Both the position numbers and the translations under genes were made by a program. A stretch of 45,819 bases of DNA from a virus. Of this stretch, positions 3,962-40,507 are shown one piece after another. Where the stretch lies: positions 1-45,819 of the IMG/VR virus record IMGVR_UViG_3300029286_000075, one strand, 5' to 3'. The notes below the pieces were generated by a model that had not been told where the DNA came from, searched no databases, and saw only the letters and a list, made by a program, of their open reading frames with translations. The stretch's first letter is position 1; every line of letters begins with the position of its first letter.

Positions 3962-3970
3962 AGTATATCA
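3962..3970 (-). promoter_or_regulatory. Extended -10 promoter of HNH gene, leaderless
   Basis: Minus strand reads TGATATACT, then 6 nt, then ATG. The TGn plus TATACT forms an extended -10, and the expected transcription start falls at or within a base of the ATG. The same layout precedes two other HNH genes (11059-11067 and 40485-40493). Confidence 0.55.
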
Positions 3971-4011
3971 GTTATTAGACTGTAATACTACTTGACAAAT
4001 ATATAAATATG

Positions 4012-5049
4012 TTATACGGTTGAACCATTCCCCGCACTCCACATCCAACCACGAAGGTCTGATGCACCCATAACTGCAAGAGAGTTGAAGTTCAACACTA
4101 AGTCTTGGTTACCTAACAAATCAATAACAGCTGGTTCTGCTCTTGTTGGAAGAGCTTCAATATATTTGAAACCGTAGTCTTCGTTGACCATTTTGGAATC
4201 AAACATACCCCATTGTAGACCATCCATAGCCAAGTTCTCGTAAGGAGAAACTTCAACGACTTTGAATGTATCTGTTGCTGGAGCGTTATTAAATACGTTA
4301 GTTTGCTGAGGAGCTAATCCTTTATCAATAGTACCTTTGATAGTTTTAGCAAATTGTGCAGCAGATGAACCTCTGCGAACAATTAAAGTATCTAGGTCTG
4401 AGATAAGTGGATTTCCACGACCATCCTTCTTTAGAGCGTGCAGTCTTCGTGCAGCCAATAAAGCTGAATAAGTAAATTGTGGAGAGTTTGTAGCACCATC
4501 TACGATAACGTTTGACCATGCAGCACCTCCGTCTTCACGAGGGTGAGCTTGTGACCAGTATTCAACTGCATCCGCACCAATTGTTGCAATTGGAGTAGGT
4601 GTTCCTACGTTGTTAATAGGTTTCCATGTGAATGAAGTATTGAATCCTTGAGCCAAAAGTGATTGAGCAAGGTAGTTCTTAGCGTGCTCAATTGCATTTT
4701 TTCCTTCAAGAACTTTTGATTTAACAGAGCTTTTAATTTTAGCTGCTGCTGATTCAAACAAAAAGAAGTTTGTTTGGAATGTCAAACGTACTTTTTTTGT
4801 AAAGTGCATTTGAACATAGTTCTTTGAGTAACCTTGGATTGGAGCATCTGATGCACCAATACCGCCATCTGGGATTATTTCAGCCATTCCTAAACCGGTA
4901 ACACCAACATCTGTGTAAATTCTTTCGTTGTTGTCAACTTTACACATGAAATCAAGGTATTCAGCCTTAACCGTTGGGGAAACTTTAGGAGAAACATGTT
5001 TTAAAACATTGTTTACGATAACTGCATAATCATTTATTGTTCCTATCAT
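4012..5049 (-). CDS. Major capsid protein (345 aa)
   Basis: Proposed HK97-fold major head protein, the shell subunit of the icosahedral capsid. Support is the position directly after scaffold and decoration genes, the typical length, a helix-rich N-terminus (MIGTINDYAVIVNNVLKHVS) and a middle segment with an E-loop/spine-helix feel (NAIEHAKNYLAQSLLAQGF). Later pieces such as YENLAMDGLQWGMFDSKMVN resemble capsids of this class. I cannot see a cleavable prohead delta domain, consistent with the separate scaffold gene. The start follows TTATAAAATATTATG, AT-rich with no Shine-Dalgarno. It is followed by an inserted HNH gene. Identification is mainly from gene order, so a structure-based search would settle it. 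Confidence 0.8.
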   Translation of the reverse strand: MIGTINDYAVIVNNVLKHVSPKVSPTVKAEYLDFMCKVDNNERIYTDVGVTGLGMAEIIPDGGIGASDAPIQGYSKNYVQMHFTKKVRLTFQTNFFLFESAAAKIKSSVKSKVLEGKNAIEHAKNYLAQSLLAQGFNTSFTWKPINNVGTPTPIATIGADAVEYWSQAHPREDGGAAWSNVIVDGATNSPQFTYSALLAARRLHALKKDGRGNPLISDLDTLIVRRGSSAAQFAKTIKGTIDKGLAPQQTNVFNNAPATDTFKVVEVSPYENLAMDGLQWGMFDSKMVNEDYGFKYIEALPTRAEPAVIDLLGNQDLVLNFNSLAVMGASDLRGWMWSAGNGSTV

Positions 5050-5079
5050 AATATTTTATAATTAATTAGTTAATAACGA

Positions 5080-5496
5080 TTATAGAGTCAAGAAACGACC
5101 GATAATTAATTTATCAGCAGCTGCTCCTAGTACATCGACCTGTTGAACAATACCAGTACCTGAAGTAGTACCAGTGTTGTTAACTGTTGTTGAATTTGCT
5201 CCAAGAACCATAGCTTGTCCGTTATCGGTAGCATTTGAGTTGTTGGTTGTTGAGAAGATATAAGTATCTTCATCTGAAGGCACGATATAAAGAACTTGAG
5301 TCAATGCTTCTGCTGCTGCAATTGTTTGGTTACAAACACCAAGCAAGTCAGCTTTCACAGTTGAGCTTGTCGCTGGAACAGCGTATCCACCAGTTTGCAT
5401 TAGAATTTCTCCTAATGTAAGAACTGTTGCTGCTTCTTTGTTAGCAAGAGCTAGTTGACGTGTATTCTTTACTACGGCTTGTTTTACTGTTGCCAT
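5080..5496 (-). CDS. Probable head decoration/stabilisation protein (138 aa)
   Basis: This small Ala/Thr/Val-rich beta protein lies between scaffold and major capsid, the usual place for a capsid decoration or head-stabilising protein. It starts MATVKQAVVKNTRQLALANK, has a Gly/Thr-rich loop (TTVNNTGTTSGTGIVQQVDV) and ends KLIIGRFLTL. This fits the lambda gpD/SHP-like group in size and composition, but I see no diagnostic motif. Spacing to scaffold (29 bp) and capsid (30 bp) shows one operon. Confidence in a virion role is fair, and in the exact role it is low. Confidence 0.6.
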   Translation of the reverse strand: MATVKQAVVKNTRQLALANKEAATVLTLGEILMQTGGYAVPATSSTVKADLLGVCNQTIAAAEALTQVLYIVPSDEDTYIFSTTNNSNATDNGQAMVLGANSTTVNNTGTTSGTGIVQQVDVLGAAADKLIIGRFLTL

Positions 5497-5525
5497 AATT
5501 TTTATTGATTAGTTAAAATCAGTTG

Positions 5526-6476
5526 TTATTCATCCGACAGAAGTTCAATGGCTTTTTCTTCTGATAGACCAGTTGAGGTAAGTTCATCAATTGACTTACG
5601 CATCTCTGGTGAGTACTCAGTTTTTGCGATGGTTCCACCGGGAAATTGCATTGCATTAACTTTTTCTTGAACGTTAGCACCTTTCAAAACTCTCTCAGTG
5701 ATAGTTTCTGATGGCTTGAACATGCTTTCACGAGCTAGTTCTAGGACTGTCATTAACTCCTTACCACTTTTGTTTTGCCAATTGTAGTTGGAATCAACGA
5801 AGTCAAAGAATACTTCTCTTGTGTCTTCATCTAAAAGCTCAGTATGTCTATCAACGAATTTATCTAAAGTACTTTTTACTTCAACTGCGAGTTGCTGCTT
5901 TTCGATGATTTCTTTAATATCTTCTTTAGTAGCACCACCAAGTTGTCGTAATCGTTCCTTATCAGCTTCTAAAAGTTCATCTACTTCCCCTGTAGGAGTA
6001 GTAACTTCTTTTTCACTCGTGTTGAGTGGATTGATAAATTTGTCAGTTCCATTAAGATTTTTTATTTGACCTTTGGTCGTCTTAATTTGTTCTGAGATTT
6101 GTTGTCGAGCCTCATCAGTTTTAGCAAGCTTACGCTTTTTTACTAAATCCATAAGTTCAATTCGCTTCTCATAAGATTCATCAGATTCGAATTTGCCCTT
6201 ATTGGGGATACGATAATCGTATTCATCCTTCTTTGGTTCATCAACAGGAGGGGTGCTGGGGTCCTCCGGTTTTGGGGTTTCAGGATTCTTTTTAGCTTCT
6301 GGAGTTTCCTCTTTTGGCTCTTCGGTTTCCTTTGGCTCTTCTACCTTGCCTTCTTCCTTTTTAGGAGTTAGGTCTTTTCCAGCTTTAACTGAATTGATTG
6401 ATTCTTCAAGAACTTTATCAAGTTCTGCTTCGTCAATTTCTTCCGGTTTTATCTCTTTATTTTTATTATCTTCCAT
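5526..6476 (-). CDS. Probable capsid scaffolding protein (316 aa)
   Basis: A highly acidic, Glu/Lys/Pro-rich, low-complexity N-terminal half (for example KEEGKVEEPKETEEPKEE, about residues 40-60) is followed by helical, coiled-coil-like segments. No Cys, membrane or catalytic motif is visible. This composition, and the position before decoration and major capsid genes, are typical of phage internal scaffolds that assemble the procapsid and are then lost. The ATG is preceded on the RNA by AAAGGATAAAAT, one of the few Shine-Dalgarno-like sites here, and that AAAGG forms the 3' arm of a conserved hairpin (6484-6502). A plausible promoter lies at 6520-6548. Translation of the scaffold may therefore be separately controlled. 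Confidence 0.72.
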   Translation of the reverse strand: MEDNKNKEIKPEEIDEAELDKVLEESINSVKAGKDLTPKKEEGKVEEPKETEEPKEETPEAKKNPETPKPEDPSTPPVDEPKKDEYDYRIPNKGKFESDESYEKRIELMDLVKKRKLAKTDEARQQISEQIKTTKGQIKNLNGTDKFINPLNTSEKEVTTPTGEVDELLEADKERLRQLGGATKEDIKEIIEKQQLAVEVKSTLDKFVDRHTELLDEDTREVFFDFVDSNYNWQNKSGKELMTVLELARESMFKPSETITERVLKGANVQEKVNAMQFPGGTIAKTEYSPEMRKSIDELTSTGLSEEKAIELLSDE

Positions 6477-6483
6477 ATTTTAT

Positions 6484-6515
6484 CCTTTCGTATCGTGAAA
6501 GGTGACGATGGTTAA
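6484..6515 (-). promoter_or_regulatory. 5'-UTR hairpin, copy 1, before scaffold gene
   Basis: The stem CCTTTC (6484-6489)/GAAAGG (6497-6502) encloses a 7-nt loop, with conserved flanks ATTTTATCC and ACGATGGTTA. A second copy at 7045-7077 has the inner stem changed from TTTC/GAAA to ACCC/GGGT, so base pairing is kept by compensatory changes. The 3' arm in RNA carries AAAGG, the likely ribosome-binding site, 6-8 nt before the ATG. Confidence 0.6.
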
Positions 6516-6519
6516 ATTA

Positions 6520-6548
6520 ATTGTATAATGGTTACATTTTATTTGCAA
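6520..6548 (-). promoter_or_regulatory. Candidate late internal promoter before scaffold
   Basis: Minus strand has TTGCAA (6543-6548), 17 bp, then TACAAT (6520-6525). The predicted start is near 6513, which would place the covarying hairpin at the very 5' end of the transcript. The -35 matches consensus at only 4 of 6 positions. Confidence 0.42.
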
Positions 6549-6549
6549 A

Positions 6550-7035
6550 CTATCTGTCAGAATATTTTACAAAAGTATTTATTTTTAGAAGTTTTGCTCT
6601 TAATGTATCTGGGTTTACTGAACCTTCGTTCAAAAAAGAGATTGCATGTTTTTGAAAATCTCCCTCGATTGAGTTATTAAATTCTCCAATGTCGGTTGAA
6701 AACTTAATAGGTATAATTACCAAATAAACTTCTTTATCAGCTTGCTTATAAAACAAGATGTTATCTTCTGGTTTGAAAACCCTGTTGAACACAGAAATTA
6801 AATCCTCTCTATCCACAGGTTTTCCACAGGTTCCTTCAAATCCTGAAGGAACAATACCTCCAAAGAAATAATCTTCAACTGGAACTTCTTTACCAGCAAC
6901 ATTTCTTAAAATGCTTTTTTTTGAAGTCTTGGTTTCTTTTGCAGGTTGATTTTCTGCTTTAGCTGCAGGGTCATTTTTTACTTTTTCTACTGGGTCCTTT
7001 GTTACCTTTTCTACTGTATCTTTTTCATTTGCCAT
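6550..7035 (-). CDS. Late protein of unknown function (161 aa)
   Basis: Not recognised. The N-terminal ~45 residues are a charged, repetitive, probably disordered tail (VEKVTKDPVEKVKNDPAAKA). The remainder looks like a compact alpha/beta domain with IPIKFSTDIGEFNNS and ends in TFVKYSDR. It lies between the 156-aa gene and scaffold, so it should act in head assembly. A copy of the covarying hairpin with an AGGATAAAAT ribosome-binding-like site precedes its ATG, suggesting coordinate translational control with scaffold. Confidence 0.65.
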   Translation of the reverse strand: MANEKDTVEKVTKDPVEKVKNDPAAKAENQPAKETKTSKKSILRNVAGKEVPVEDYFFGGIVPSGFEGTCGKPVDREDLISVFNRVFKPEDNILFYKQADKEVYLVIIPIKFSTDIGEFNNSIEGDFQKHAISFLNEGSVNPDTLRAKLLKINTFVKYSDR

Positions 7036-7044
7036 ATATTTTAT

Positions 7045-7077
7045 CCTACCCGTGTCGTGGGTGGTTACGATGGTTAC
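7045..7077 (-). promoter_or_regulatory. 5'-UTR hairpin, copy 2, before 161-aa gene
   Basis: CC-ACCC (7045-7051, with a bulged T at 7047) pairs with GGGTGG (7059-7064) around loop GTGTCGT, which differs from copy 1 by one base. The flanking ATTTTATCC and ACGATGGTTA are the same as in copy 1. The 3' flank overlaps the stop region of the preceding gene. Confidence 0.58.
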
Positions 7078-7544
7078 TTAATTTTTAAATTTTTAAACGA
7101 CCTATAAAACTTATTTATATAATCAGTCATCTCAGGTTTTAATTTTTTCTTTGCCTCATCAATGTATTCTCGAGTCAAGATTAATGATGGGACATCCATC
7201 TTTATCTTTGCTATGCCGTAAGACTGTTCTATTATAGCAAATTCTAAAGGTAATGGATGGGTGTAATTGATATTAATCTTTTCACCTTTCTTCATATCTT
7301 TATCAAGAACACACTGCAATTGCCGACCGACCTCGACAACATTAATTCTATCAGATTCAACAAATGTGGCTTCTAGTGTTTCAGAATTAACACCACCAAT
7401 AATCATTGATGACATTTCTTCCGCACTGATTACAAATTCGTCTCCGGATTTTGTAATGAACTTCATTAATTTTTTCTCAATAGCTTCGGGAGAATATCCT
7501 ATTTGAACTGTGTAATTTTCTTTTTTTAACTCTCGTGATTTCAT
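7074..7544 (-). CDS. Late protein of unknown function (156 aa)
   Basis: Not recognised. A soluble alpha/beta protein beginning MKSRELKKENYTVQIGYSPE and ending in a basic helix (INKFYRSFKNLKIK). It has no transmembrane segment and one Cys (QLQCVLDKDM). It starts 2 bp from the stop of the 77-aa gene and lies in the small-gene cluster between portal and scaffold. That position often holds head-completion or connector-associated proteins, but no motif supports a specific assignment. Confidence 0.6.
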   Translation of the reverse strand: MKSRELKKENYTVQIGYSPEAIEKKLMKFITKSGDEFVISAEEMSSMIIGGVNSETLEATFVESDRINVVEVGRQLQCVLDKDMKKGEKININYTHPLPLEFAIIEQSYGIAKIKMDVPSLILTREYIDEAKKKLKPEMTDYINKFYRSFKNLKIK

Positions 7545-7545
7545 A

Positions 7546-7779
7546 TTATTTTTCTTCGTGTAAACTTCCGTTTCTAATATTTTCTAAATAGTCCACCATT
7601 GTTCGAAGCATTGTTCCTTGAACTTCTAGGGTTACTGCATTTACAATTGTACCCCATTCAGTGTCTACAATAATTGGGGTTTTAGACATACAGTCCTTCA
7701 TCAACTCAATAATAGTTGAGGCGTGTTCGCTTGTAGCTAAGGCAATCTTTTTTTGTTTTAAGTTTTGTTCGCTTTCCAT
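7546..7779 (-). CDS. Small late protein of unknown function (77 aa)
   Basis: Not recognised. A short, mostly helical soluble protein (SEHASTIIELMKDCMSKTPI; ending DYLENIRNGSLHEEK). It is packed with 2 bp to the 156-aa gene and 2 bp to the transglycosylase-like gene upstream, so it is co-expressed with portal-region genes. Its reality rests on the tight spacing and the otherwise empty interval. Confidence 0.55.
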   Translation of the reverse strand: MESEQNLKQKKIALATSEHASTIIELMKDCMSKTPIIVDTEWGTIVNAVTLEVQGTMLRTMVDYLENIRNGSLHEEK

Positions 7780-7780
7780 T

Positions 7781-8440
7781 TTATTTTTCCATTATATTTT
7801 TAAAATAATTCAACACCCGTTCACGATTTTTGGGTGTGTAACTAGGACCTCCATTTCCAACGTAATATTCCATATAATCATTCGCCAATGATTCTGGAGT
7901 GAAATCTTCTTTTGATTGTCTCTTCATCATAAAAAACTCATTTGCTAGTTCACCGGCACCTTCGGGTGTCATGAGTTTTTGTTGAATCTCGTCTGGATGT
8001 TTTCCAGGAAGAAGAGGAGCACCATACTTTGTGTATTCAGATAAAGGAGCATTCTTGTTTGCTTTTGATTTTGCAAGTTCTGCTAATGCATCTGGAGTTA
8101 ATCCGTACTCTCCACCGTATCCAATATCATAAGATATTTTTCTTTGTTTTTCATTTCCATTCAAAGCTGGAATAATATATTCTCTTCTCATGTTTCTTGG
8201 TGTGTTTGGGTCAAGACCTCCACTAGACTCAAGGTCACGAATGGCTTTAGAAATAAGTGCAGGATTTACTGTTCCTTTTGGAATAGTTGGAGTAACTTGT
8301 TTTTCAGAAGGTAATCCTTTGCTTCTAAGATATTCTTCTCTGTCATAAGTAATTGGTTTTGATTGAAAAACACTAGAAAGACTTCCAGATAATTTCTTTG
8401 CTCCGTCTACTGTTTTATTGTAAATATCAAGTATTCCCAT
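7781..8440 (-). CDS. Lytic-transglycosylase-like virion protein (219 aa)
   Basis: Probable virion-associated peptidoglycan-cleaving protein that helps DNA entry. Residues about 62-80 read SKAIRDLESSGGLDPNTPRN, where ESSG fits the catalytic-Glu motif of SLT-type transglycosylases, and GYGGEYGLTPDALAELA (about residues 107-123) takes the place of the usual G-L-M/T-Q/P-I motif. Later helices (EGAGELANEFFMMKRQSKED) match the helical remainder of the fold. It follows portal directly, with the start at GTAGGATAAAATATTATG, an AGGA-containing site that overlaps the portal end. Family assignment comes from motif spacing only. A degenerate, non-catalytic adaptor is possible. Confidence 0.55.
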   Translation of the reverse strand: MGILDIYNKTVDGAKKLSGSLSSVFQSKPITYDREEYLRSKGLPSEKQVTPTIPKGTVNPALISKAIRDLESSGGLDPNTPRNMRREYIIPALNGNEKQRKISYDIGYGGEYGLTPDALAELAKSKANKNAPLSEYTKYGAPLLPGKHPDEIQQKLMTPEGAGELANEFFMMKRQSKEDFTPESLANDYMEYYVGNGGPSYTPKNRERVLNYFKNIMEK

Positions 8441-8446
8441 AATATT

Positions 8447-10600
8447 TTATCCTACTGCACCAGCTCTTCCTATACTTGCATCAACTGCACTACCCATTGG
8501 TGATTGTGGTCGTGGAACTTCATTAGGATTTTGAGGTTGCATTGGGTCCATTCCATCTCCAGCCATTTGTTGTCCCATTGGAAGTGATTCTCCTCCTCCA
8601 GAACCTCCGGCCATAGATTGCATTGCAGTGTTCTTTGCTTCTTGTTCCATTTGAGCTTCTTGCATTTGTCGTTGCATATCCGAAGGTTGTTTCGCAATAA
8701 TTGCATCGTAATCAGTTTTTGAAATGTAATCAAAGATATCTCCATTTTGAATATCAAGAAGTTTTTCGAGTGCCATCAGTTGAGAAGCAGCAGCTTCAGG
8801 GTCTTGGTTTCTCATTGAATAAATCAATGTAATCTGATTAGTAATAACAGGGAACAGTGCCATATATGTTTGTCGTTGAATTTCAAGAGATGGTAGAAGC
8901 ATTGAATCTGGGTCAATAATAAATTCAATGTAATCACAGATGTGTCCTGTATTCTTCATTTCATCGAACAATCCTTTTGCAGAAATTTGACGAGTGTCAA
9001 CATTTTCCATAACTTCTCCTTCTGGAGAGAAGTCGAAATTCAATCGTAGATTTTGAGAGGCAGCCGCAACCATTCCAACTGGAATACCGTTATCATCAAG
9101 AACGTCTTGTGATTCAATATAGTAGTCTGGGTTTTGTCTTGTGAACTCAGCTAGTTGGTCCTGAGAATCAATCATGAAGATTTTATCTGTAGGATAAATT
9201 TGTCGCATCCATGTATTTGCAATGTGAGCATCTCGTTCCAATCCTGTAACCATAGAATTTTTCGGAGGAGTCAATCGATTGTATGCAGCTTCCTTTAAGA
9301 TAACCGTTGAACCGAGAGTAGTTTCAGATTGAGTTCCGGCCACGATGTTGTTCACACCAGTGTTCTCTTCTATAGCCATCTTTTGTTTGTCAGCGTATAT
9401 AATTCCTTGTTGAACATTTCCGGAAGTTTTTACTACATCAATATCAGTTCCTGGGTGTTTAGGGTTTACAATGTTTGGTCCTCTCTTATAGGTAGCGGAG
9501 CCATTTTGTACTTGAGCACCGAATAGAAGTGGGAAAATTTCCGCTTCAACTTGTTGTGCGTTTAGAGAGTTGATATATGTATAGATAGCAGTGTTACCTC
9601 TCATCATTTCATATAGTCCAACACCGTATGGGTCGTTAAGATTTTTTTGGAAACAACGAGCGACTACTACTGAACCATGAGAGCCATCGTTAGGAAGTTC
9701 TCCATCGTAAATAACCATTTTTCCACAAGTAACAATATATCGGTTCATCAATTCATTTTCATAGTATCCGATAGTTACGCTTGTATGGGTCTTCTCACTA
9801 TTTTCATCTTTAGCTTCTTCAGATACTGAAACGTATTCCAATTTCTTTTTATTTTTCGCAGATTTTGCTTCTGGATACATTCTAAGAAAATCTTCCTTAG
9901 GCATATCCTTCTCATAATAAACTTCAGATTGTGACCAAACATCTCCATTATTAAAACCAATTCCAAGCCATGTTCTTGTAACCTCTAGTGGCTCTCGGTA
10001 AATATCATCGAATAGAATTTTATCAACTCCATTTCTTTTTACTTGAACTCGCCTTGGATATACTCTCCACGCAGCCCATCCGTATGTAAATAAATTTTGG
10101 TACGTCAACATCAGAGTGTTCGAACCGTTTGCACCAGTCATTGACCAGTTTCTCTTCCACAATTCGTACATTGCTTTTCCGTAGACCTTATCATCTGCGA
10201 CCACAGTAGCATCTGGAAGTTTTCCAGCTAGAACAGAGGTTGCGATAATAATTTTTGAGAATGCAATTGGTTCTTGAGATACAGGAACACCAGAACGGTT
10301 CTGGTCCCGGTCCGTAAGTTTCTGTGGATAGACGTTAATATCGTAAGCACCATTAGCCATCTTGTTGTAGAACACCATTGACCCCCAACCAGATTTTTCA
10401 TATAGCTTCTGTCCGTAAGAAACAGCAGTGTTCATCAAGTTCTGCTGTATTTCTGAAGCGAGAGCATCGAATTTTTCTCGATACTGACTTTTCTTCATCT
10501 GTTTCTTCTTTTCTGTAATAAATTTTATGGTATCGGTATCGTTTTTACTTTTTTTTGTAAAAATTTGTTCTGTTTCTAATGGTGTTAGGTCTTTTTCCAT
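8447..10600 (-). CDS. Portal protein (717 aa)
   Basis: Ring-forming dodecameric portal through which DNA is packaged and ejected. Evidence is the size (717 aa, like podovirus portals), position right after TerL once the HNH insertion is ignored, and typical features: an Asp/Glu/Lys helical N-terminus, a central region with many aromatic and basic residues (RSGVPVSQEPIAFSKIIIAT), a long helix rich in Asn and Gln near NNIVAGTQSETTLGSTVILK (a stem/wing element seen in many portals), and a Gln/Met/Pro-rich disordered C-terminal barrel tail (MQMQPQNP-like, about residues 640-717). The start is ATG after AATTAATTAAAAATATG, without a Shine-Dalgarno. Confidence 0.85.
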   Translation of the reverse strand: MEKDLTPLETEQIFTKKSKNDTDTIKFITEKKKQMKKSQYREKFDALASEIQQNLMNTAVSYGQKLYEKSGWGSMVFYNKMANGAYDINVYPQKLTDRDQNRSGVPVSQEPIAFSKIIIATSVLAGKLPDATVVADDKVYGKAMYELWKRNWSMTGANGSNTLMLTYQNLFTYGWAAWRVYPRRVQVKRNGVDKILFDDIYREPLEVTRTWLGIGFNNGDVWSQSEVYYEKDMPKEDFLRMYPEAKSAKNKKKLEYVSVSEEAKDENSEKTHTSVTIGYYENELMNRYIVTCGKMVIYDGELPNDGSHGSVVVARCFQKNLNDPYGVGLYEMMRGNTAIYTYINSLNAQQVEAEIFPLLFGAQVQNGSATYKRGPNIVNPKHPGTDIDVVKTSGNVQQGIIYADKQKMAIEENTGVNNIVAGTQSETTLGSTVILKEAAYNRLTPPKNSMVTGLERDAHIANTWMRQIYPTDKIFMIDSQDQLAEFTRQNPDYYIESQDVLDDNGIPVGMVAAASQNLRLNFDFSPEGEVMENVDTRQISAKGLFDEMKNTGHICDYIEFIIDPDSMLLPSLEIQRQTYMALFPVITNQITLIYSMRNQDPEAAASQLMALEKLLDIQNGDIFDYISKTDYDAIIAKQPSDMQRQMQEAQMEQEAKNTAMQSMAGGSGGGESLPMGQQMAGDGMDPMQPQNPNEVPRPQSPMGSAVDASIGRAGAVG

Positions 10601-10656
10601 ATTTTTAATTAATTATTAATTAATTATGACTCCATTTATAAAATAAAGCAAGTTTA

Positions 10657-11052
10657 TTATTTTTTTTTCTTCATTCTGATATATCTTGCTTTAGAATAAC
10701 ATCGATATGAACAAAATTTTGCCTTTCTGACAGAAAAATAACTGAATTTTGTGTTACAAGACTCACAATTTCCAATTTTTTCTACTTTTCTTTCTTTCAT
10801 GTGATGGATGGCGTGGTCCTTAGAAGACAGTAGTTCCAAATTGTCTATTGAATTATTTAAAGTGTTTCTGTCTTTATGGTGAACAATATAGTTTTTTGGT
10901 ATTGGCCCATAATTATCAATCCAAATCTGTCTGTGTAAGGAAACTGGTGGCTGTTTCCACTTATCATGCCTCCAGTAATAAGCTCTATGCTGTCTGCGTT
11001 TTGATTCTGGATTTCTATTATATTTTTTGCCTTGATAAACAATTGTATCCAT
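10657..11052 (-). CDS. HNH homing-type endonuclease (131 aa)
   Basis: An HNH nuclease between TerL and portal. The HNH core lies at residues about 40-90: LHRQIWIDNYGPIPKNYIVH, then HKDRNTLNNSIDNLELLSS, then KDHAIHHM, the classic H-N-H layout of phage homing nucleases. A C-terminal Cys4 finger (CESC, then CSYRC) and a Lys/Arg tail probably aid DNA binding. Minus-strand TGATAAACT lies 6 bp before the ATG, again suggesting its own leaderless promoter. The gene separates two otherwise adjacent packaging genes, as expected for an insertion of a mobile nuclease beside a conserved target. Confidence 0.9.
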   Translation of the reverse strand: MDTIVYQGKKYNRNPESKRRQHRAYYWRHDKWKQPPVSLHRQIWIDNYGPIPKNYIVHHKDRNTLNNSIDNLELLSSKDHAIHHMKERKVEKIGNCESCNTKFSYFSVRKAKFCSYRCYSKARYIRMKKKK

Positions 11053-11058
11053 ACATGT

Positions 11059-11067
11059 AGTTTATCA
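11059..11067 (-). promoter_or_regulatory. Extended -10 promoter of HNH gene, leaderless
   Basis: Minus strand has TGA-TAAACT, 6 nt, then ATG. A TTGCAA-like -35 lies 16 nt upstream of the hexamer. This is the same geometry as at 3962-3970 and 40485-40493. Confidence 0.48.
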
Positions 11068-11086
11068 TAATGGTAAATAATTGCAA

Positions 11087-12823
11087 CTAATGATTTATCA
11101 CAGTACCCTGGTCCTCACCAAAAATCATTTTCATGTGACTTGTGCCTTCACCAGCTTGAGCGTCATCAACATAGCGGCCTTGCTCCTGAAGTATGGCATA
11201 ACCAATAGCAGCTGCGAGTATGCAATCATCGTGTTTTTTATCCATAGCTTCCGGTTTTCCTTTTATGTTTCGAATGAATGTGAACATTTCGTTCAAAATC
11301 TGTGCCGGGAATCCTCTATCAAGTCGGAAGAAGTACGCCTTCAGTGCAGCGAGTGCAAAAGGTCTAGTCGCAGACGTAGTTTTCCACCCAAAAAATTTTG
11401 TCACCTTCTGTGTTATGTCATCGAATACCTTTCTATAGTACAGATTAATATACCCCATCTTTTCCAGTGCATCGTTCACCCACAGTCCATCCTTGTTTAC
11501 TTCAATCCCAAGTAGAGCCCAGTTGTAATACTTCCCGAGTTTGTATGCCTCCGTAGCCAGTTCATCCGGTGCCACTTGTGACCTGTATATTGCATCACAC
11601 CCCTCCGTCTTGTGATTTATTACATAGAGCACCTGTGCATCCCCGTGAGCCAGTCCTTCAGAAGTATCTCCCCCGATTATATATCTAGTTCCAACTTGAG
11701 GCTCGTGGAACACTTCCAAAGACCCCGATGATACTTTGTTGAATACCACCCCTCCCGTTTCAGTATTTCCGAGTTCTCCCCTCACTCCAGGCGTAGCCTC
11801 CGCCAGTAATTTAGCCACCTTAGCTGTTGAGAAATAGGTCTGTCCGGTAGACAGAAAAGCTTCCTCCTGAGTAGTTGGGTATTCCTGCATCAGAGATTTA
11901 ATAGCATCCGGTGAGTTCTTTCCTCCGAACTGCAACCATTTCATATAGTAGTAAGTAATCTCCTTATCCGTCAGATTATGCTCCACCTGATAACTCGCCC
12001 AATCAATTTCACAGACCTCCATTTTATCCGTAGGAACAGTCTCGTAAATCTTCTTCATTTCCATATCATCGTATTGCCAATTATAAAAGTGTGGCATGAA
12101 CTGCACCTGCGATAACTGCGGTGTTATTTTATCCCTACTCAACCAATTCTGTTGGAAGATTTCGTAGAACCTCCCAGCCATTCCTTCCGCAGTGGACTCG
12201 ATGAATATGAACCCATCGAACGGAACCGTTGGGAAAGTACCTCTCTCCACTTCCTCCGCTCGTTTTGGATACTGTGCACAGAGTTTAGCGAACTCCGATA
12301 TATGAACAAGGTGATACGTTCCCGAACGACCGGACACTGCCACAGCAATAGAGGAGGTGGAACCCTTCTCCGGCCCGTAGTCCAGAACAATCTGTATCTT
12401 TCGTGCAGACTTCTGATTGATTTTAAAGAAAGCTCCCTTCACATCCTCCGCCATGTTTCGAACAGCGAATTCAATCTTCTTGTCGAAAATCTGTGTTGCA
12501 TCCTCCACCTTGTGAGCGATTACAATCCCCTCCTTGTTCGGCTGGAATAGTATAGAGTCCAATATCAGAAGGTCGATGAAAGTTGTGAATCCGAGTTGCC
12601 GACTTTTCAGAATTACATGCCTATGATATGGCCTCTCCATATTCAGATAATTATCGTAAAAATGTTTCTGTGCCCTGTTCATCGTAAACACCGCCTTATC
12701 TCCATCCTTCGTAATTATCCAGTACAAATTCGAAAGCCTCCACTCCTGACTTTGAATAAGCTCTGGATTTTTTGTCAGTAGTTCTACAATTTTTTCATTA
12801 TGGTCCTTGTATATATTCGCCAT
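11087..12823 (-). CDS. terL: Terminase large subunit (578 aa)
   Basis: Packaging ATPase and nuclease that docks on the portal and cuts concatemers. The Walker A variant KSRQLGFTT is at residues 73-81. A Walker B candidate, LVHISEFAK, lies near 172-180, and the coupling motif FIFIESTAEG at 205-214. The C-terminal RNase-H-like nuclease has acidic positions in IIGGDTSEG (about 380), GIEVNKDG (about 420) and HDDCILAAAIGYA (about 528-540). The length fits the family, and the adjacent TerS supports the call. The ATG directly follows the TerS stop with no Shine-Dalgarno. Base composition is clearly GC-richer than portal and scaffold (for example 35 of 60 G/C at 12841-12900 just outside it against 23 of 60 at 9001-9060), so this pair may have a separate history. 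Confidence 0.96.
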   Translation of the reverse strand: MANIYKDHNEKIVELLTKNPELIQSQEWRLSNLYWIITKDGDKAVFTMNRAQKHFYDNYLNMERPYHRHVILKSRQLGFTTFIDLLILDSILFQPNKEGIVIAHKVEDATQIFDKKIEFAVRNMAEDVKGAFFKINQKSARKIQIVLDYGPEKGSTSSIAVAVSGRSGTYHLVHISEFAKLCAQYPKRAEEVERGTFPTVPFDGFIFIESTAEGMAGRFYEIFQQNWLSRDKITPQLSQVQFMPHFYNWQYDDMEMKKIYETVPTDKMEVCEIDWASYQVEHNLTDKEITYYYMKWLQFGGKNSPDAIKSLMQEYPTTQEEAFLSTGQTYFSTAKVAKLLAEATPGVRGELGNTETGGVVFNKVSSGSLEVFHEPQVGTRYIIGGDTSEGLAHGDAQVLYVINHKTEGCDAIYRSQVAPDELATEAYKLGKYYNWALLGIEVNKDGLWVNDALEKMGYINLYYRKVFDDITQKVTKFFGWKTTSATRPFALAALKAYFFRLDRGFPAQILNEMFTFIRNIKGKPEAMDKKHDDCILAAAIGYAILQEQGRYVDDAQAGEGTSHMKMIFGEDQGTVINH

Positions 12824-12826
12824 TTT

Positions 12827-13294
12827 TTAAAAATCATCCTCCTCCTTCAACTGAGGTTCCGCCGAAGTGTCCTGGATAAGCGGAGCTGGACCTCCGATAG
12901 TCTGATTCTCCACCTGTTGAAGAATGACCGTTCGCAAGCGGTTGGTCGACTGTGATTGGTCCTTCTCCTTTGGAGCCTGGTTGAACTTCGACCATGCCAG
13001 TCCAATAGCGTTGAGAGCTCCAATAAGGTCCTTGTTCGAGAAGTCCGAGAACCCACGTTTTTTAAACTCAGCCATAGCGGCCAGGGCTAGGTTATTAGAG
13101 TCCACAGCTAAGGCAGAGATTGCGTTGTGGAATCCCTGCTTGTCCTCGATATGAGAAGATACCGAATTAGCCACCGCAGGAGAGTATCCCACGTTCAATG
13201 CAATCTCCTTTTTTGATTTACCCTTAGCCCCAAGAAGCCCACGAGCGTAAGCCATCTGTTTCATAGTGGAACCCTTTGTCGAAATAAATACCAT
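12827..13294 (-). CDS. terS: Terminase small subunit (155 aa)
   Basis: Recognises phage DNA to start packaging and regulates TerL. It is directly upstream of TerL and contains a helix-turn-helix-like N-terminal region (KSKKEIALNVGYSPAVANSV, about residues 26-45), typical of TerS, then a helical oligomerisation region and an acidic end (QLKEEDDF). A start at MVFISTKG is preferred over the later MKQMAY: TTGACA, 16 bp, TACAAT ends 7 bp before this ATG, which predicts a leaderless transcript beginning exactly there. Its GC content is high, like TerL. The gene opens the main late operon. Confidence 0.87.
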   Translation of the reverse strand: MVFISTKGSTMKQMAYARGLLGAKGKSKKEIALNVGYSPAVANSVSSHIEDKQGFHNAISALAVDSNNLALAAMAEFKKRGFSDFSNKDLIGALNAIGLAWSKFNQAPKEKDQSQSTNRLRTVILQQVENQTIGGPAPLIQDTSAEPQLKEEDDF

Positions 13295-13301
13295 ATCCTT
13301 A

Positions 13302-13329: not shown

Positions 13330-13339
13330 AGTTTGTGTG

Positions 13340-13582
13340 CTAAAACTTCTTTTTCATTTCTTTGATTATTTCATCAGCATCTTTAGGGGTGTTAGATTCT
13401 CCATATAAATCTTCATTGCGTTTTATATTTTTTTCAAGTTCATCGTCTCTATCTAGCTGAAATTCAATAGCCCTGTTTATTATAAAAGTTATATTTGTTC
13501 CTAATCTTTCAGACCTAGACTTCAATCTAATCTTTAAATCCTCTCTTAAATTAAAGCTAAACATCTTTTTATTATTTTTCAT
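13340..13582 (-). CDS. Ribbon-helix-helix transcription regulator (80 aa)
   Basis: A small Arc/CopG-type DNA-binding protein. The N-terminal strand KKMFSFNLREDLK (residues 5-17) is followed by helix IRLKSRSERLGTN and helix ITFIINRAIEFQLDRD, the RHH order, then an acidic tail with EIIKEMKKKF. It is the first gene of the late block and sits beside the array of TTATGTC/GACATAA sites at 13627-13952. One site lies just upstream of its own -35 (13613-13618), so it may autoregulate and switch early and late transcription. Its promoter's -10 ends 7 bp before the ATG, giving a leaderless mRNA. RHH proteins commonly bind short repeated sites like these. Binding here is inferred. Confidence 0.82.
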   Translation of the reverse strand: MKNNKKMFSFNLREDLKIRLKSRSERLGTNITFIINRAIEFQLDRDDELEKNIKRNEDLYGESNTPKDADEIIKEMKKKF

Positions 13583-13589
13583 ATATATA

Positions 13590-13618: not shown

Positions 13619-13623
13619 ATAAA

Positions 13624-13952: not shown

Positions 13953-13975
13953 CCTTTTTAGGTACCATATAACCA

Positions 13976-31353: not shown

Positions 31354-31354
31354 A

Positions 31355-32362: not shown

Positions 32363-32387
32363 GGTGTATATAAATTATATTATTAAA

Positions 32388-32750: not shown

Positions 32751-32760
32751 ATTTTTTTAA

Positions 32761-34176: not shown

Positions 34177-34178
34177 AA

Positions 34179-35624: not shown

Positions 35625-35649
35625 TATATTTTTATTTTAATTTTCCCAT

Positions 35650-35685
35650 CCCCCATCCCTATACCGCAAAACATAAGGATGGGGG
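35650..35685 (-). promoter_or_regulatory. Strong GC-rich hairpin between collagen-like and tail-hub genes
   Basis: CCCCCATCC (35650-35658) pairs with GGATGGGGG (35677-35685). No U-tract follows on either strand, so it is not a classical terminator. A barrier to exonuclease or a processing site separating the two cistrons is more likely. Confidence 0.5.
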
Positions 35686-35693
35686 GAGAAAAA

Positions 35694-36167
35694 CTAAACA
35701 GTTACGTTAGTCACAAGTCCGTTTACTATCGTAATAGTTGCTGGGTTACAAGGACCTGTACTGAAAGTACCTACTGGACCTGTAGGACCCGTTGCTCCTT
35801 GAGGACCTGTAGGACCCGTTGCTCCAGTTGCTGAAGCTGCACCTGTTGGACCTGTATAGCCAGTTGGACCGATTGGACCAGTATAGCCTGTTGGACCTTG
35901 AGGACCTGTTGGACCTGTTGCACCCGCTGCACCAGTTCCGATTGCTGACCATGATGGACTAGCAACTGTACCCACGTTTTGATAAACCGCAGTACCATTT
36001 AGGTCTTGCAATAGACATTCTAGTGCAAAAAGACCTCCATAGGTTGTTCCTGTTGGCGGTGTACCGATAACTGTACCGAAAGTAATAAGCGGTGTTGAAC
36101 CACTGCTTTTTGGTTGTTCCATTTGTTGAACATCAACTGTTGGAATCAAAGGATTAATATATGCCAT
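35694..36167 (-). CDS. Short collagen-like protein (157 aa)
   Basis: The N-terminal domain (1-80) is a small beta region beginning [20 protein letters not shown]. The C-terminal half has about 20 G-x-y triplets ([20 protein letters not shown] and so on), a collagen-like triple-helix stalk, ending in a short cap ([20 protein letters not shown]). Probably a trimeric fibre or decoration. It shares its repeat style with the larger collagen-like gene at 44034-45323. The adjacent HNH gene upstream is an insertion. Confidence 0.8.
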
Positions 36168-36175
36168 GATTTTAA

Positions 36176-36679
36176 TTAATTAACTTGTAATTTGTTTCTT
36201 GACTTGGGACCAGGCTTCTCAAGTTTAGGTGATAGAGTTTTTTCTGCTGACCACCTATAAGCATAAAATCTTTGCATTAAAGTTTCTCTGCTTATACCTA
36301 ATTCTTTCGACCATTGGCTAAATGTTTTACCATTTAACTTTCGGACATTTCCTGTATTATTCATATTTTCCATTCGAGTAACCCAATGACAATTTATCTT
36401 GCTATAACCTATTTTATTATTTATTCGGTCTAACTCTGTGTCATTTTCATTGATTTCTCTATGTAAAAGATATAAGTCCCACATATCAATAAAGAAATAC
36501 TCAAATTTTTTCCATCTATCAGACACTTTAACCCCCTTATTGAAATAAGATTTATTATTTCTGTTGGTAGTTTTTTGTCTGCATCTCCGATTCATTTCAC
36601 TCCAAACTTTGTAGAAATTTCTTTCTACCTTATTTGGATTTGATGAAGATTTAAATTTTGAATGAATAATATTTGACAT
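36176..36679 (-). CDS. HNH-type homing endonuclease (167 aa)
   Basis: Phage-type HNH nuclease. Its core shows [14 protein letters not shown] (about residues 23-36), [20 protein letters not shown] (about 47-66), then [20 protein letters not shown] (about 82-101) with the DR-I-x-N-x-x-G-Y-x-x-x-N-C-x-W motif of these proteins. A C-terminal helix-turn-helix ([19 protein letters not shown]) is a NUMOD1-like DNA-binding arm. Its target is likely in the neighbouring connector or collagen-like gene. Unlike three other HNH genes it lacks the TGATAWACT promoter; only a weak CTTAAT precedes it. Confidence 0.83.
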
Positions 36680-36686
36680 ATCTTTA

Positions 36687-38084
36687 TTAAGATGTTATAA
36701 TCGTGGTATCCTGACCCGTATAAAGATTATCAAACAAAGCTTTTACTAATGATTCGAACTTCTTTAAATCCGGGTCGTTACCTTCCAATGCAATATCTTT
36801 ACGATATTTAATGGCGTAACGAAGATACCACTTGTAAATTTCACGATAATGCTCAGGGAGAACTTGATAAAGATTTTGAACCTCATCAATCTTTTTGTAG
36901 TAATCAATATATATGTTATTCCCCTGCATTGAATCAGGAATAATTCTATCAAAGACTAACTTATCTCCGTGAACAGTATAATAAATCGGCTGTGAAATTG
37001 TGGGTCTCGACCAAACCCGAGTGCCGACTGGAATATCTCTTGTTATTCCAGTAACGCCTAGGAGTTGGTTTGTTGTAAGGTCTACTGAGGTATATGCGAT
37101 TTGCATAATTGTTTGAGTAAACCCTGTTGTTTCAACATACGCAACTCCAGCTGATGTGTTTGGAAAATCCCCGGAGCTATCTAACGTAATAGAAGTAGCT
37201 CCAGTCAGAGCTTCGGCTGTAGTAGTTCCACCCATAACTGAAAATGCAATTTGGTTCCAACTTCTTTTATCAATGTATTTCAAGTTGAAAGGTGTAAGAA
37301 CGTTTCCAATCATAAACCTACAAGCCAATACCGACCTATCTGTTTCAGAGAAATCAATATCTTCAGGGAGGTTTATGGAATTACTTCCAGCATAAACTTT
37401 AATAGGATATTCAAACTGTTGTTGCCAAGCGTGTCTGATACCATACAATTTTGCTTCAGTGAATTTTCGTGCATCGTCAATGGCTGATAGACAAAAATCT
37501 ACAGTTATTTTTGGGTCACCTTCTGATACCCCCATAGCTTTTAGAACTGGGAATATAACTGAAGCAACAGAGTTTGTTGGATAGGAATCAACGCTGATTG
37601 GGGAGGAAAATTCCGACACTAAACCAGTGATGGAATTTTTCCATTGAACCTTGTAGTAATCTGTTGGAAGTCCCGTACTGTCATAGATTACTGTTTTTTG
37701 CTGAGTGGTGAAGAAAGTCTGAGTAGCTAAAACCGAGTAAGTTCCGCCTATTGTAGAACATTTAGAAATTACAATCTGGTCGTATTTTAACTCGCTAACA
37801 GAGTCTCCTCTGTTGTGAAGGTTGGAAGTTGCTAATGTTACAAATGACGTAGCTGTGTGAGAAGTAGATTTAATTATCTCAGCGTTTTCTGAACCAATAG
37901 AAGAAAGTAACAACATGATATCCCCAGCGATAAAGTCTGCAGCGTTATCAACAGGGACAGCAAGGACCGCTGAAGCTATGTTACTGCTTATATAAGTCGT
38001 TGTCTTGACATCCAATTGATTAGGAATTTCAAGGGTATTTCCTATATTGTGAAAAACTCGAATTTGAGGAAAAGAAGAACTCAT
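36687..38084 (-). CDS. Head-tail connector/adaptor protein (465 aa)
   Basis: Beta-rich N-terminal domain (residues 1-160), then a helical segment (KITVDFCLSAIDDARKFTEA) and a C-terminal helical region ending in KYRKDIALEGNDPDLKKFES. The central DYYKKIDEVQNLYQVLPEHY stretch followed by a WYLRYAIKYRKD helix is the pattern of proteins that join portal to tail in short-tailed phages. It lies upstream of the tail-hub genes. The fold cannot be proved from motifs, but length and place fit. Confidence 0.66.
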   Translation of the reverse strand: MSSSFPQIRVFHNIGNTLEIPNQLDVKTTTYISSNIASAVLAVPVDNAADFIAGDIMLLLSSIGSENAEIIKSTSHTATSFVTLATSNLHNRGDSVSELKYDQIVISKCSTIGGTYSVLATQTFFTTQQKTVIYDSTGLPTDYYKVQWKNSITGLVSEFSSPISVDSYPTNSVASVIFPVLKAMGVSEGDPKITVDFCLSAIDDARKFTEAKLYGIRHAWQQQFEYPIKVYAGSNSINLPEDIDFSETDRSVLACRFMIGNVLTPFNLKYIDKRSWNQIAFSVMGGTTTAEALTGATSITLDSSGDFPNTSAGVAYVETTGFTQTIMQIAYTSVDLTTNQLLGVTGITRDIPVGTRVWSRPTISQPIYYTVHGDKLVFDRIIPDSMQGNNIYIDYYKKIDEVQNLYQVLPEHYREIYKWYLRYAIKYRKDIALEGNDPDLKKFESLVKALFDNLYTGQDTTIITS

Positions 38085-38158
38085 ATTATTTTATTTGTAT
38101 TAATTGGAATACCTTTTGACATACCTTAATTCTATACTCTTTGTTTCTTAAAATCAAA

Positions 38159-38341
38159 TTATCCTTGATTACTTGAACTCACTGCAATCCCATTTTTGTT
38201 CAAAACAGCTACAACAATTTTTAGAATTGCTCCAACCGCAACAAAAAGTAGTCCAATCCCTGCATCTGTTCCAATCTGCACAAGTCCTGCACCTAATAGT
38301 AAGCTTCCTGCTTCATTCAATGTTAATGATGTATTATTCAT
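38159..38341 (-). CDS. Holin-like membrane protein (60 aa)
   Basis: A small hydrophobic protein: N-terminal acidic/polar MNNTSLTLNEAGSLLLGAGL, then a hydrophobic, Gly-rich stretch (IGLLFVAVGAILKIVVAVL, about residues 29-47) and a short polar tail. One or two membrane helices can be drawn. It is 6 bp after the lysin gene, the normal place for a pore-forming holin that releases or triggers the lysin. It is also a candidate for the weakly similar 84-aa membrane protein at 45345. Confidence 0.6.
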   Translation of the reverse strand: MNNTSLTLNEAGSLLLGAGLVQIGTDAGIGLLFVAVGAILKIVVAVLNKNGIAVSSSNQG

Positions 38342-38347
38342 ATAATT

Positions 38348-39328
38348 TCAATTAAATATTTCTGTTAATTTTGATTTTGTTAATGGTCCAAAGTTACCCT
38401 CTGCTGGTACAATTCCGTATTGCTTTTGGAATTTTATACAAGAAGACCTAGTAACTGGGCCCCAATTCTCGACTTTTGAAACATTAGTTGGGAATAATCC
38501 TAACCACTCAAAGCATGTTTGAGCCGATATAATTGTACCATCAAACTTTGGTTTGTCGCTTCCTTGCTGTGCAAATTTGAAGGCCATAACATAAGAAGCC
38601 AAGAAACATCTTTTGTTGAAATAATCACGACTGATTAATCTTTGACCGTTCATTGAATGTCCAAGACCCCAAGATTCATCGCAAACTAAATATTCAACAC
38701 CATTATAAGTTACGGGTTCAATCGCTATGATTGAATGTCCTGATGTATAAGGTTTACCACTATAAACCGGGATATCTTTCCACTCTTCTCTATTGAACTT
38801 GAACCAAACCATTACACCTTTACCAGTTTGTTGAAGGGTTGAGGCAACAGTATCGAAATCTAAAGGAAGAGAAATTTTCTTAATCTCTAAAACTTTCGCT
38901 AAATCTTTTGCATAAGTAGGCATTGGTACAGCCATACAATCTTTTTCTCCTAGACCGTCTCCTGGCATAAATGATTCAAAGATATTTCCAATTTTAGGGA
39001 ATATAGAGTATATATCTACTGAACTACATCCTCCGCCATTATTGATATCACTTCTAAGTTGATATGGAAAACAAGTTGAGAAATCTACCCATACACCATA
39101 TTTCTGCAAGAACCAAATTGAAAGTTCTTTCGCATAAGTAAATGTGACACACCGGCTACTTGAACCCTGTGAACGTATTGGATACTTCACAAAATCTTTT
39201 ACATCTTTTACTGGGAAAGTGGGAGTTGCTACTGAAGCCACTACATCACTTTGCTGATAATTTTTTTCTTTCTCCTCATCAGTTTGGTTGTCTATACAAC
39301 CTAAATAAATTTCTAATTCGTTGTCCAT
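38348..39328 (-). CDS. C1-papain-like peptidase lysin with peptidoglycan-binding domain (326 aa)
   Basis: Probable endolysin. The N-terminal C1-like peptidase has the catalytic Cys in RSQGSSSRCVTFTYAKEL (Cys60) and a His in SGHSIIAIEP (about 197). The usual Asn of the NSWG motif appears as CDESWG (about 213-218), so Glu replaces Asn at the third catalytic place, an oddity that needs checking. The C-terminus (about 255-326) is a PG_binding_1 domain: ISAQTCFEWLGLFPTNVSKV, then GPVTRSSCIKFQKQYGI and GNFGPLTKSKLTEIF. It would cut wall cross-bridges at lysis. Its N-terminus overlaps the glycosyltransferase stop by 16 bp; a holin-like gene follows. Confidence 0.82.
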   Translation of the reverse strand: MDNELEIYLGCIDNQTDEEKEKNYQQSDVVASVATPTFPVKDVKDFVKYPIRSQGSSSRCVTFTYAKELSIWFLQKYGVWVDFSTCFPYQLRSDINNGGGCSSVDIYSIFPKIGNIFESFMPGDGLGEKDCMAVPMPTYAKDLAKVLEIKKISLPLDFDTVASTLQQTGKGVMVWFKFNREEWKDIPVYSGKPYTSGHSIIAIEPVTYNGVEYLVCDESWGLGHSMNGQRLISRDYFNKRCFLASYVMAFKFAQQGSDKPKFDGTIISAQTCFEWLGLFPTNVSKVENWGPVTRSSCIKFQKQYGIVPAEGNFGPLTKSKLTEIFN

Positions 39329-39915
39329 AAATTTTCTAATTTAACTTTTAATAATGCTCGGTCTTCTTCTACTTTTTCCCAGCCTAATTCATACACCTTA
39401 TCCATTGGAGAACCTTTTGAGAAATGATAATGATGTACAATCGCTTTATCAGCTCTAACAAAGATTCCGAGTTTCTCCATTTGAGCTAATAAATAATTAT
39501 CAACTCCAACATGATGAAAATCTGTATCAAATACTTCACCAATCTTTTCAATGATATCTTTCCTAATCATGAAATGCTCGTTGATATTTCCTCTGTCTGG
39601 ATACACTTCACCTGTATTGAAAGCCACATAACCTTTCTCTCCAACCTTCAACGCTTCGTTAATTGATTCCGGTGTGAACTCATTGTCATTTGCTGCATAT
39701 ACAATCCAATCACCAGTTGATTCTTCAACCCCCTGTTTAACAAGTTTTGGAACTCCAAGTCTGTCATTAAATAAGTCTTGTTTAACAATTATTTCAATTC
39801 TATCTTGTGGATAATTCAATGATTTTATTGAGTTCAAACACCTTTCTAGGCCTTCACTTCTATCCAGGGTAGGGATAATAAAAGATATCGAAGGTGTTTC
39901 TATTGTTTTTTCCAT
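39313..39915 (-). CDS. Family-2 glycosyltransferase (200 aa)
   Basis: Transfers a sugar from a nucleotide donor. The N-terminal GT-A fold has SFIIPTLDRSEGLERCLNSI (residues 11-30), then the acidic DxD-like piece WIVYAANDNEFTPES (about 70-84) and a HHVGVDNYLLAQME-type acceptor loop. It is short, with no membrane anchor. It overlaps the lysin start by 16 bp and is separated from the three-domain glycosyltransferase by an inserted HNH gene. Likely substrates are virion proteins (for example the collagen-like fibre) or host surface glycans. This is inference. Confidence 0.85.
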   Translation of the reverse strand: MEKTIETPSISFIIPTLDRSEGLERCLNSIKSLNYPQDRIEIIVKQDLFNDRLGVPKLVKQGVEESTGDWIVYAANDNEFTPESINEALKVGEKGYVAFNTGEVYPDRGNINEHFMIRKDIIEKIGEVFDTDFHHVGVDNYLLAQMEKLGIFVRADKAIVHHYHFSKGSPMDKVYELGWEKVEEDRALLKVKLENLWTTN

Positions 39916-40478
39916 AGTGGTTTTATAAATTTATTTGCTAATTTTTTCATAGTTTTTACGTCAAATGTTTCACCCTTTACCATGTTACACGTCATACACG
40001 ATAAACAAATATTAGACTTAATATATCCAAGTTTATTACTTTTCCTATCTATACTAAAACGTAATTTACCTCTATAATTCTTTATTAAGTATAACTTCTC
40101 TTCTGGGATTTCGCAATAAGAACATTTTTTTTCTTCGTTTTTATACCACTGAATAAATTCATCTTTATCTATAATTGAGATATATTTCTTTTTTCTTGTT
40201 CTACTAACCAAGACGTGATAAATACCTAATGGTGTTTTATGATACCTCGCCCCCTTTTCTCTTTGTTTTTGTAAAAAAAGTTCTGGATTTTTCTCTCTTC
40301 TTCTTTTTATTGATTCTATTGATAATTCAATATACCTTTCTTTATTCTTAATATAATCTCTACGCTTTGATTCTTTAACTTTATCTGGATTCGCCAATCT
40401 CCATTTTCTATTATTCTCTCTAATTTTGTCCTTATTCTTTAACCTCCACTCCTTGTTATATTTATAATAATTGTTCAT
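39900..40478 (-). CDS. HNH homing-type endonuclease with basic N-terminus (192 aa)
   Basis: The C-terminal HNH-type core is CSYCEIPEEKLYL (about 117-129), FSIDRKSNKLGYIKSNICLS (about 139-158) and CMTCNMVKGETF, two Cys pairs round an IDR-x-x-N-x-x-GY-x-x-x-N motif. The N-terminal half is a strongly basic, charged helix (KNKDKIRENNRKWRLANPDK) likely to bind DNA. It is inserted between two glycosyltransferase genes, overlapping the downstream one by 16 bp. Its promoter, TGATATACT 6 bp before the ATG, matches those of the other HNH genes. Confidence 0.85.
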   Translation of the reverse strand: MNNYYKYNKEWRLKNKDKIRENNRKWRLANPDKVKESKRRDYIKNKERYIELSIESIKRRREKNPELFLQKQREKGARYHKTPLGIYHVLVSRTRKKKYISIIDKDEFIQWYKNEEKKCSYCEIPEEKLYLIKNYRGKLRFSIDRKSNKLGYIKSNICLSCMTCNMVKGETFDVKTMKKLANKFIKPLWKKQ

Positions 40479-40484
40479 ACCTAA

Positions 40485-40507
40485 AGTATATCATATATAA
40501 CTTTAGG
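40485..40507 (-). promoter_or_regulatory. Leaderless HNH promoter inside an inverted repeat
   Basis: Minus-strand TGATATACT (40485-40493), 6 nt, then ATG. The region is enclosed by an 8-bp inverted repeat, CCTAAAGT (40480-40487) and ACTTTAGG (40500-40507), that overlaps the -10, so a bound protein or a cruciform could block the start. Confidence 0.52.

Follow-up and report, generated by a model that had tools for sequence, protein, structure and literature searches.

This study was concerned with three HNH endonuclease genes, termed HNH1, HNH2 and HNH3, in the IMG/VR phage record IMGVR_UViG_3300029286_000075, which was analysed whole (45,819 nt) and is referred to here as the window. Sequence comparisons indicate that these are probably homing endonuclease genes with built-in, often leaderless, sigma70-type promoters, and that HNH2 in the window looks like an escaped form of a gene nested in another frame of an intein. 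We also lean, though only slightly, toward a wider interpretation, in which a widespread class of phage inteins would hold its endonuclease as a second gene in the -1 frame, expressed from a leaderless mRNA whose promoter lies in the intein codons, and free-standing genes such as HNH2 would have escaped together with that promoter. The features concerned are as follows.

3356-3955, minus strand: HNH1, free-standing HNH gene (PF01844, Pfam), 199 amino acids, between the capsid-position gene and the next structural gene; supported by occupied versus empty sites.
3962-3970, minus strand: extended -10 TGATATACT, 6 nt before the HNH1 ATG.
3993-3998, minus strand: TTGTCA, the start of TTGTCAAGT, 25 nt upstream of the HNH1 -10 (sequence comparison).
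10657-11052, minus strand: HNH2, free-standing candidate homing endonuclease gene of the HNH_3 type (PF13392; Pfam E 8e-17), 131 amino acids, between terL and the portal gene; confident predicted fold (AlphaFold mean pLDDT 91).
11059-11067, minus strand: extended -10 TGATAAACT, 6 nt before the HNH2 ATG.
11081-11086, minus strand: -35-like TTGCAA, 16 bp from the HNH2 -10 (sequence; score 10.5, top among the upstream positions tested).
11087-12823, minus strand: terL (terminase large subunit), uninterrupted (phrog_2, E 1e-23).
Between 11225 and 11224, minus strand: position in terL of the intein site of relatives (HDD^C); relatives with the intein removed restore KKHDD-C(I/V).
36176-36679, minus strand: HNH4, a fourth HNH gene, without the motif described below (PHROG).
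39900-40478, minus strand: HNH3, endonuclease VII-like/HNH gene, 192 amino acids (phrog_1035, E 4e-14).
40485-40493, minus strand: extended -10 TGATATACT, 6 nt before the HNH3 ATG, within a 24-bp intergenic gap.
40506-40511, minus strand: -35-like TTGTCC, 15 bp from the HNH3 -10 (sequence; score 10.5).

The original prediction held that three HNH genes share the motif TGATAWACT-N6-ATG, and the search bore this out. Exact matches were found at 3953-3970, 11050-11067 and 40476-40493, all on the minus strand and each ending in the ATG of one of the three HNH-type open reading frames (ORFs), and there was no further exact match anywhere in the window. Dinucleotide shuffles gave an expectation of 0.02 +- 0.14 matches, and three were reached in none of 100 shuffles. 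The motif was picked post hoc, but this is offset by a ranking of all 50 gene starts in the window by sigma70 score at the motif spacing, which still places HNH3 first (10.5), HNH2 second (10.5) and HNH1 fourth (6.0). HNH4 (phrog_3377) lacks the motif and represents an internal negative. HNH3 was assigned from endonuclease VII and HNH PHROGs only and has no significant Pfam HNH match. For HNH1 and HNH2, the HNH domain and the occupied and empty insertion sites are those of free-standing homing endonuclease genes.

The relatives of HNH2 place this gene in a different context. A TerL search indicated that in related phages they lie mostly inside terL, not after it. In these nested relatives the HNH gene is always in the -1 frame relative to the intein, and the terL frame runs open through CFVKDTMILTDKG...GTPDHP...VYNLQV..EYFANNILVHN^C. 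A Hint intein, placed at HDD^C in the nuclease motif of TerL, thus carries the gene; its removal from KKHDD^C...N^C(I/V)MAASIGYA restores sequence that is contiguous in the intein-free TerL of the window, KKHDDCILAAAIGYA. In the first set, where nested status was assigned by frame openness, the only non-nested relatives were the free-standing genes of the window and of L084, L090, L091 and L161 (L-numbers denote the loci of relatives compared with the window). Wider searches, thinned to below 80% identity, gave 77 loci, of which 74 were nested. These 74 genes are hidden, out-of-frame HNH genes, and the free-standing HNH2 of the window is not.

Several lines of evidence identify the carrier as an intein for which splicing is predicted. 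The intein frame matches the Hint_2 (E 5e-9 to 5e-10) and Intein_splicing profiles, with weak NCBIfam intein matches. It has an N-terminal Cys, the block B TxxH, a C-terminal (H/S/F)N and a Cys or Ser at +1, and the catalytic residues are invariant. An AlphaFold model of the intein is confident for residues 1-100 and 210-233 (pLDDT 87-97) and not for the overprinted residues 101-209 (40-79), and in the PDB it most closely matches the phage gp41-1 intein (E 6e-6). The HNH frame of nested relatives matches HNH_3 (E 1e-16 and 4e-14), and a sequence search found no matching solved structure for the HNH2 family. A group I or group II intron was rejected as the carrier, as an Rfam search of 15 nested loci returned no intron and one tRNA; a scan of the window likewise gave neither intron nor riboswitch.

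Both frames are kept open across the nested HNH ORFs. In the 74 nested ORFs (137-255 codons, below 80% identity) no intein-frame stop was found, compared with 219.8 expected from synonymous shuffling of the HNH codons, and the third frame contains 1583 stops against 1559 expected. Nested HNH genes are also present in named phages in which TerL is annotated as one ORF, namely Acinetobacter phage Highwayman, Tetrasphaera phage TJE1 and Rhodobacteraceae phage LS06-2018-MD07; among these three, the Hint profiles were checked in Highwayman and TJE1, whose HNH starts look leadered or ambiguous, unlike those of the N6 inteins of L118 and L131 (N6 denotes a -10 lying 6 nt from the start). Cultured or named phages with an unannotated nested HNH ORF hidden in TerL include L254 (OZ038341), L255 (HQ225832) and L256 (OP947163). 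A genome scan gave a sole GTDB match, an Acidobacterium metagenome-assembled genome (L257), with an N-terminally extended nested HNH of the same type. Members with a frame-breaking change or internal deletion (L088 / L195 and L094) may represent element decay or sequencing error.

The promoter of the HNH2 family is under selection as DNA, beyond the amino-acid demands of the intein. When the 110 nt preceding each start were scanned for sigma70-like sites, the -10 of the best site was exactly 6 nt from the start (N6) in 47 of 78 HNH2-family genes, compared with 3 of 54 other gene starts at the same loci (Fisher p 3e-11). In nested relatives the motif bases are the intein codons D-[TKI]-[LI]-[HY]-[VI]-W, with the -10 encoding D-x-L/I-H/Y. 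When intein codons were redrawn with the amino acids fixed, the mean N6 score fell from 8.01 to 4.29 +- 0.40, with a maximum of 5.55 in 500 draws, although the sequences are related and the size of this gap is not readable as a probability. As a position control, 190 distances were compared, and distance 6 had the highest mean z (1.47; others 0.18 +- 0.21), followed by the overlapping distance 4 (1.19). Codon choice in the intein is also skewed toward codons that match the promoter: Ile ATA in 13/13 (background 0.43), Asp GAT in 31/33 (0.60), Thr ACA in 11/12 (0.37) and, in the -35, Leu TTG in 15/30 (0.19). In addition, the free-standing, intein-less L090 and L091 keep TATAGT-N6-GTG and TACAAT-N6-ATG. 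In two nested relatives (L117, L122) the HNH start has moved downstream; the TATAAT (TGATATAAT) is kept about 45 nt upstream, and GGAGG or AGGAG has been gained before the new start.

HNH1 gives evidence that the promoter travels with the gene. The site that follows the capsid-position gene holds an HNH1 insertion in 17 loci and is empty in about 55, where the gap to the next gene is 61-106 nt and has no such promoter. As the promoter is present in HNH1-containing alleles and not in empty sites, it belongs to the HNH1 insert, in agreement with the built-in promoter of the original prediction. The promoter-to-start distance is 6 or 7 in 6 of 13 HNH1 lineages (the window, L260, L327, L105, L285 with a weaker TAAGAT, and L288). 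Thus the motif was not absent from homologous insertions, the outcome named beforehand as contrary to the prediction, and the proposed survey of spacing in relatives was borne out in part: the short spacing recurs in the HNH2 and HNH1 families, but the rest are largely leadered. In leadered HNH1 lineages the leader is filled by a TATTATTAATTAATA-like repeat, and in L098-L106 and L261-L313 a leader of about 29 nt is filled by the inverted repeat TGTATTATTAATTAATACA. Exactly 25 nt separate the HNH1 -10 from the upstream sequence TGTCAAGT at 3991-3998 (minus strand), and the diverged loci L260, L327 and L285 have it at this spacing too; it is too distant for a -35 and is possibly an operator or the trace of a homing site. 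For HNH3, only two copies were found, and these are identical. An inverted repeat, CCTAAAG...CTTTAGG at 40485-40511 (minus strand), encloses the HNH3 -10, with folding no better than shuffles. The inverted repeats near the -10 elements of HNH2 and HNH3 were unconserved or not comparable.

The free-standing HNH2 of the window looks like a copy that escaped from an intein. It lies 34 bp beyond the terL stop, ahead of a portal promoter that relatives share, and the DNA upstream of it still reads HYDKLHVW in the former intein frame. In the tree, the window HNH2 and L084 (98/90) are sister to three nested genes (95/86). Escape would be a simpler history than the reverse invasion of an intein by a free-standing gene. 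The terL-portal gap is 11-127 nt in most relatives. At the place of HNH2, insertions of 447-829 nt were seen in L004, L006, L008, L027, L032, L052 and others, an apparent hot spot.

These observations suggest the following mechanism. The extended -10 of each HNH gene is placed so that transcription would start at, or within one base of, the start codon. In nested genes, ribosomes making the TerL-intein could not make the out-of-frame nuclease and would pass over its start, so a separate leaderless mRNA suits such a gene. The promoter within the conserved D-[TKI]-[LI]-[HY]-[VI]-W codons would produce a short mRNA that begins with the nuclease AUG or GTG, and the host ribosome would accept it. 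The long TerL mRNA would give the TerL-intein, from which the intein would excise itself with the overprinted stretch as a loop. Family members with a start further downstream would use a leader, often with a Shine-Dalgarno (SD) motif. The HNH protein would then cut intein-free terL, and the HNH2 of the window would be a free-standing descendant after the terL stop, with about 25 bp of former intein sequence kept as its promoter. In leaderless mRNAs, such as lambda cI from PRM, the -10 lies about 6-7 nt before the start and there is no SD; the same layout was found here, and leaderless expression is likely. The lambda cI-type mRNAs share this -10 spacing and SD absence, but theirs are host or regulator genes and not mobile nucleases.

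Several observations weigh against this interpretation. The N6 spacing is present in 37 of 48 close HNH genes and in only 10 of 30 divergent ones, and a leader takes its place in about a third of the HNH2 family. Part of the N6 spacing is inherited, as the relatives are non-independent and both the -10 and the ATG are set in part by the D-x-L-x-x-W codons. SD-like motifs occur at 13 of 25 starts with a leader of at least 18 nt and at 0 of 47 with N5-7, a contrast that is partly built in because a -10 at N6 leaves little of the SD window free. In HNH1, the distance is 26-30 (a leader of about 29 nt) in 7 of 13 lineages, and L105, with N6/N7, groups with leadered genes, so leaderlessness in HNH1 changed more than once. 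The HNH1 promoter of the window consists of an extended -10 only, without a -35. HNH3 fits in spacing and score, but its copies are all identical. The scoring assumes that the host uses sigma70. Finally, the near-leaderless layout is not exclusive to nucleases. Two non-HNH genes on the minus strand have strong promoters before the ATG, one of 80 amino acids at 13340-13582 (TTGACA-17-TATACT-N7) and one of 155 amino acids at 12827-13294 (TACAAT-N7).

Other explanations were weighed against these results. The most serious one accepts real promoters and proposes that transcription starts upstream or imprecisely, with ordinary non-SD internal initiation like that of other genes in this SD-poor phage, so that leaderlessness is incidental. 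An SD-like motif is present at only 5 of the 50 gene starts in the window, which suits this proposal and makes the absence of an SD uninformative by itself. The leaders seen in roughly half of HNH1 relatives and one third of HNH2 relatives suit it as well. However, there is scant room for a leader when the -10 is six nt from the start, and no distance other than N6 is preferred, in several lineages and with both start codons; we regard this explanation as unlikely, though worth keeping in mind. A further proposal is that the motif is merely intein coding, in which D-x-L-x-x-W codons resemble a promoter, the ATG comes from the (V/I)-W codons and the free-standing HNH2 is a relic. The motif is indeed translated in nested relatives, W80 is invariant in the intein alignment and the codons fix the spacing. 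This proposal does not predict the drop in score upon synonymous recoding far below that observed, the codon choice skewed toward TANNNT and TTG, the -10-N6-start kept by the intein-less L090 and L091, or the presence of the motif at HNH1 and HNH3 without any intein, and it appears improbable.

Nested HNH could instead be produced as an intein-HNH fusion by a programmed -1 frameshift from the TerL-intein, for which no promoter would be needed. The constant -1 frame agrees with this, and X XXY YYZ heptamers were found near the start in 19 of 42 loci; yet the other 23 have none, the place of the heptamer is unconserved and mostly after the HNH start, and in most loci an HNH-frame stop lies 12-15 nt before the start. 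Free-standing members, in which frameshifting is unneeded, also keep the motif. A frameshift is thus very unlikely to account for these genes. The original prediction had offered either convergent selection or transfer of one portable expression unit among the three families. An identical 9-mer with identical spacing in three unrelated genes of one genome would suggest transfer. However, the upstream sequences are unrelated, aligning only over consensus promoter bases, and the flanks are family-specific, with intein codons in HNH2 (where the motif itself is intein coding) and TGTCAAGT or the leader hairpin in HNH1. Transfer of a single module is hardly credible, and convergent selection is the better reading, since the flanks are unrelated between families.

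Built-in leaderless promoters and out-of-frame nesting can be compared with several known systems. Fractured genes with split inteins (Dassa et al. 2009) reportedly hold a free-standing endonuclease gene between their halves. The resemblance is an intein and an independently expressed endonuclease gene at one locus, but that intein is split, whereas the intein frame described here runs unbroken across the nuclease gene. HNH_3 is found in frame in the dCTP deaminase intein of cyanophage CL131 (PMC6293099), and inteins have a conserved endonuclease insertion site (PMC6801210). As in these systems, a Hint splicing domain has an HNH inserted after block B; their nuclease is part of the intein polypeptide, whereas the one described here has a gene of its own in the -1 frame. 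The T4 I-TevI, I-TevII, I-TevIII and segB genes and Aeh1 mobE have their own embedded promoters (PMC2988022), which also lie just upstream and apart from the host transcript. However, these are late or middle promoters with a ribosome-binding site, a sequestering hairpin and a short leader, and the genes are neither leaderless nor overprinted (PMC2988022). T4-like sequestration of the ribosome-binding site was unsupported in the window, where RNA folding gave hairpins around the three HNH starts that were no better than shuffles (z -1.25 to -0.04). The closest system is the ShiLan domain, a hidden out-of-frame HNH in phage DNA methylases (Arsenault, Gosselin, Gogarten 2025, PMC11855218), whose authors ask how the hidden HNH is translated and suggest leaderless initiation. 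Both systems have an HNH overprinted in the second frame of an open host gene without an SD. The ShiLan host-frame insert is neither an intein nor an intron and has no promoter described (PMC11855218), whereas here dozens of phages have a Hint intein as the carrier, usually within TerL, and a promoter is conserved 6 nt ahead of the start. The open-licence literature, the only literature covered, yielded no description of an intein with a nuclease gene in another frame, so this absence is weak evidence.

If this interpretation is true, one stretch of DNA would serve as a protein-splicing domain, a promoter, a start site and a second gene. To the question of how hidden HNHs are translated (PMC11855218) it offers, from a different setting, an answer that is concrete, conserved and open to test, namely a promoter that sets the 5' end on the start codon. 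In addition, an unannotated second gene would be present in many phage TerL genes that are annotated as one ORF, among them those of the cultured phages Highwayman and TJE1. These loci would thus represent an unusually clear case in which the same bases are selected as promoter DNA, as intein protein and as HNH protein.

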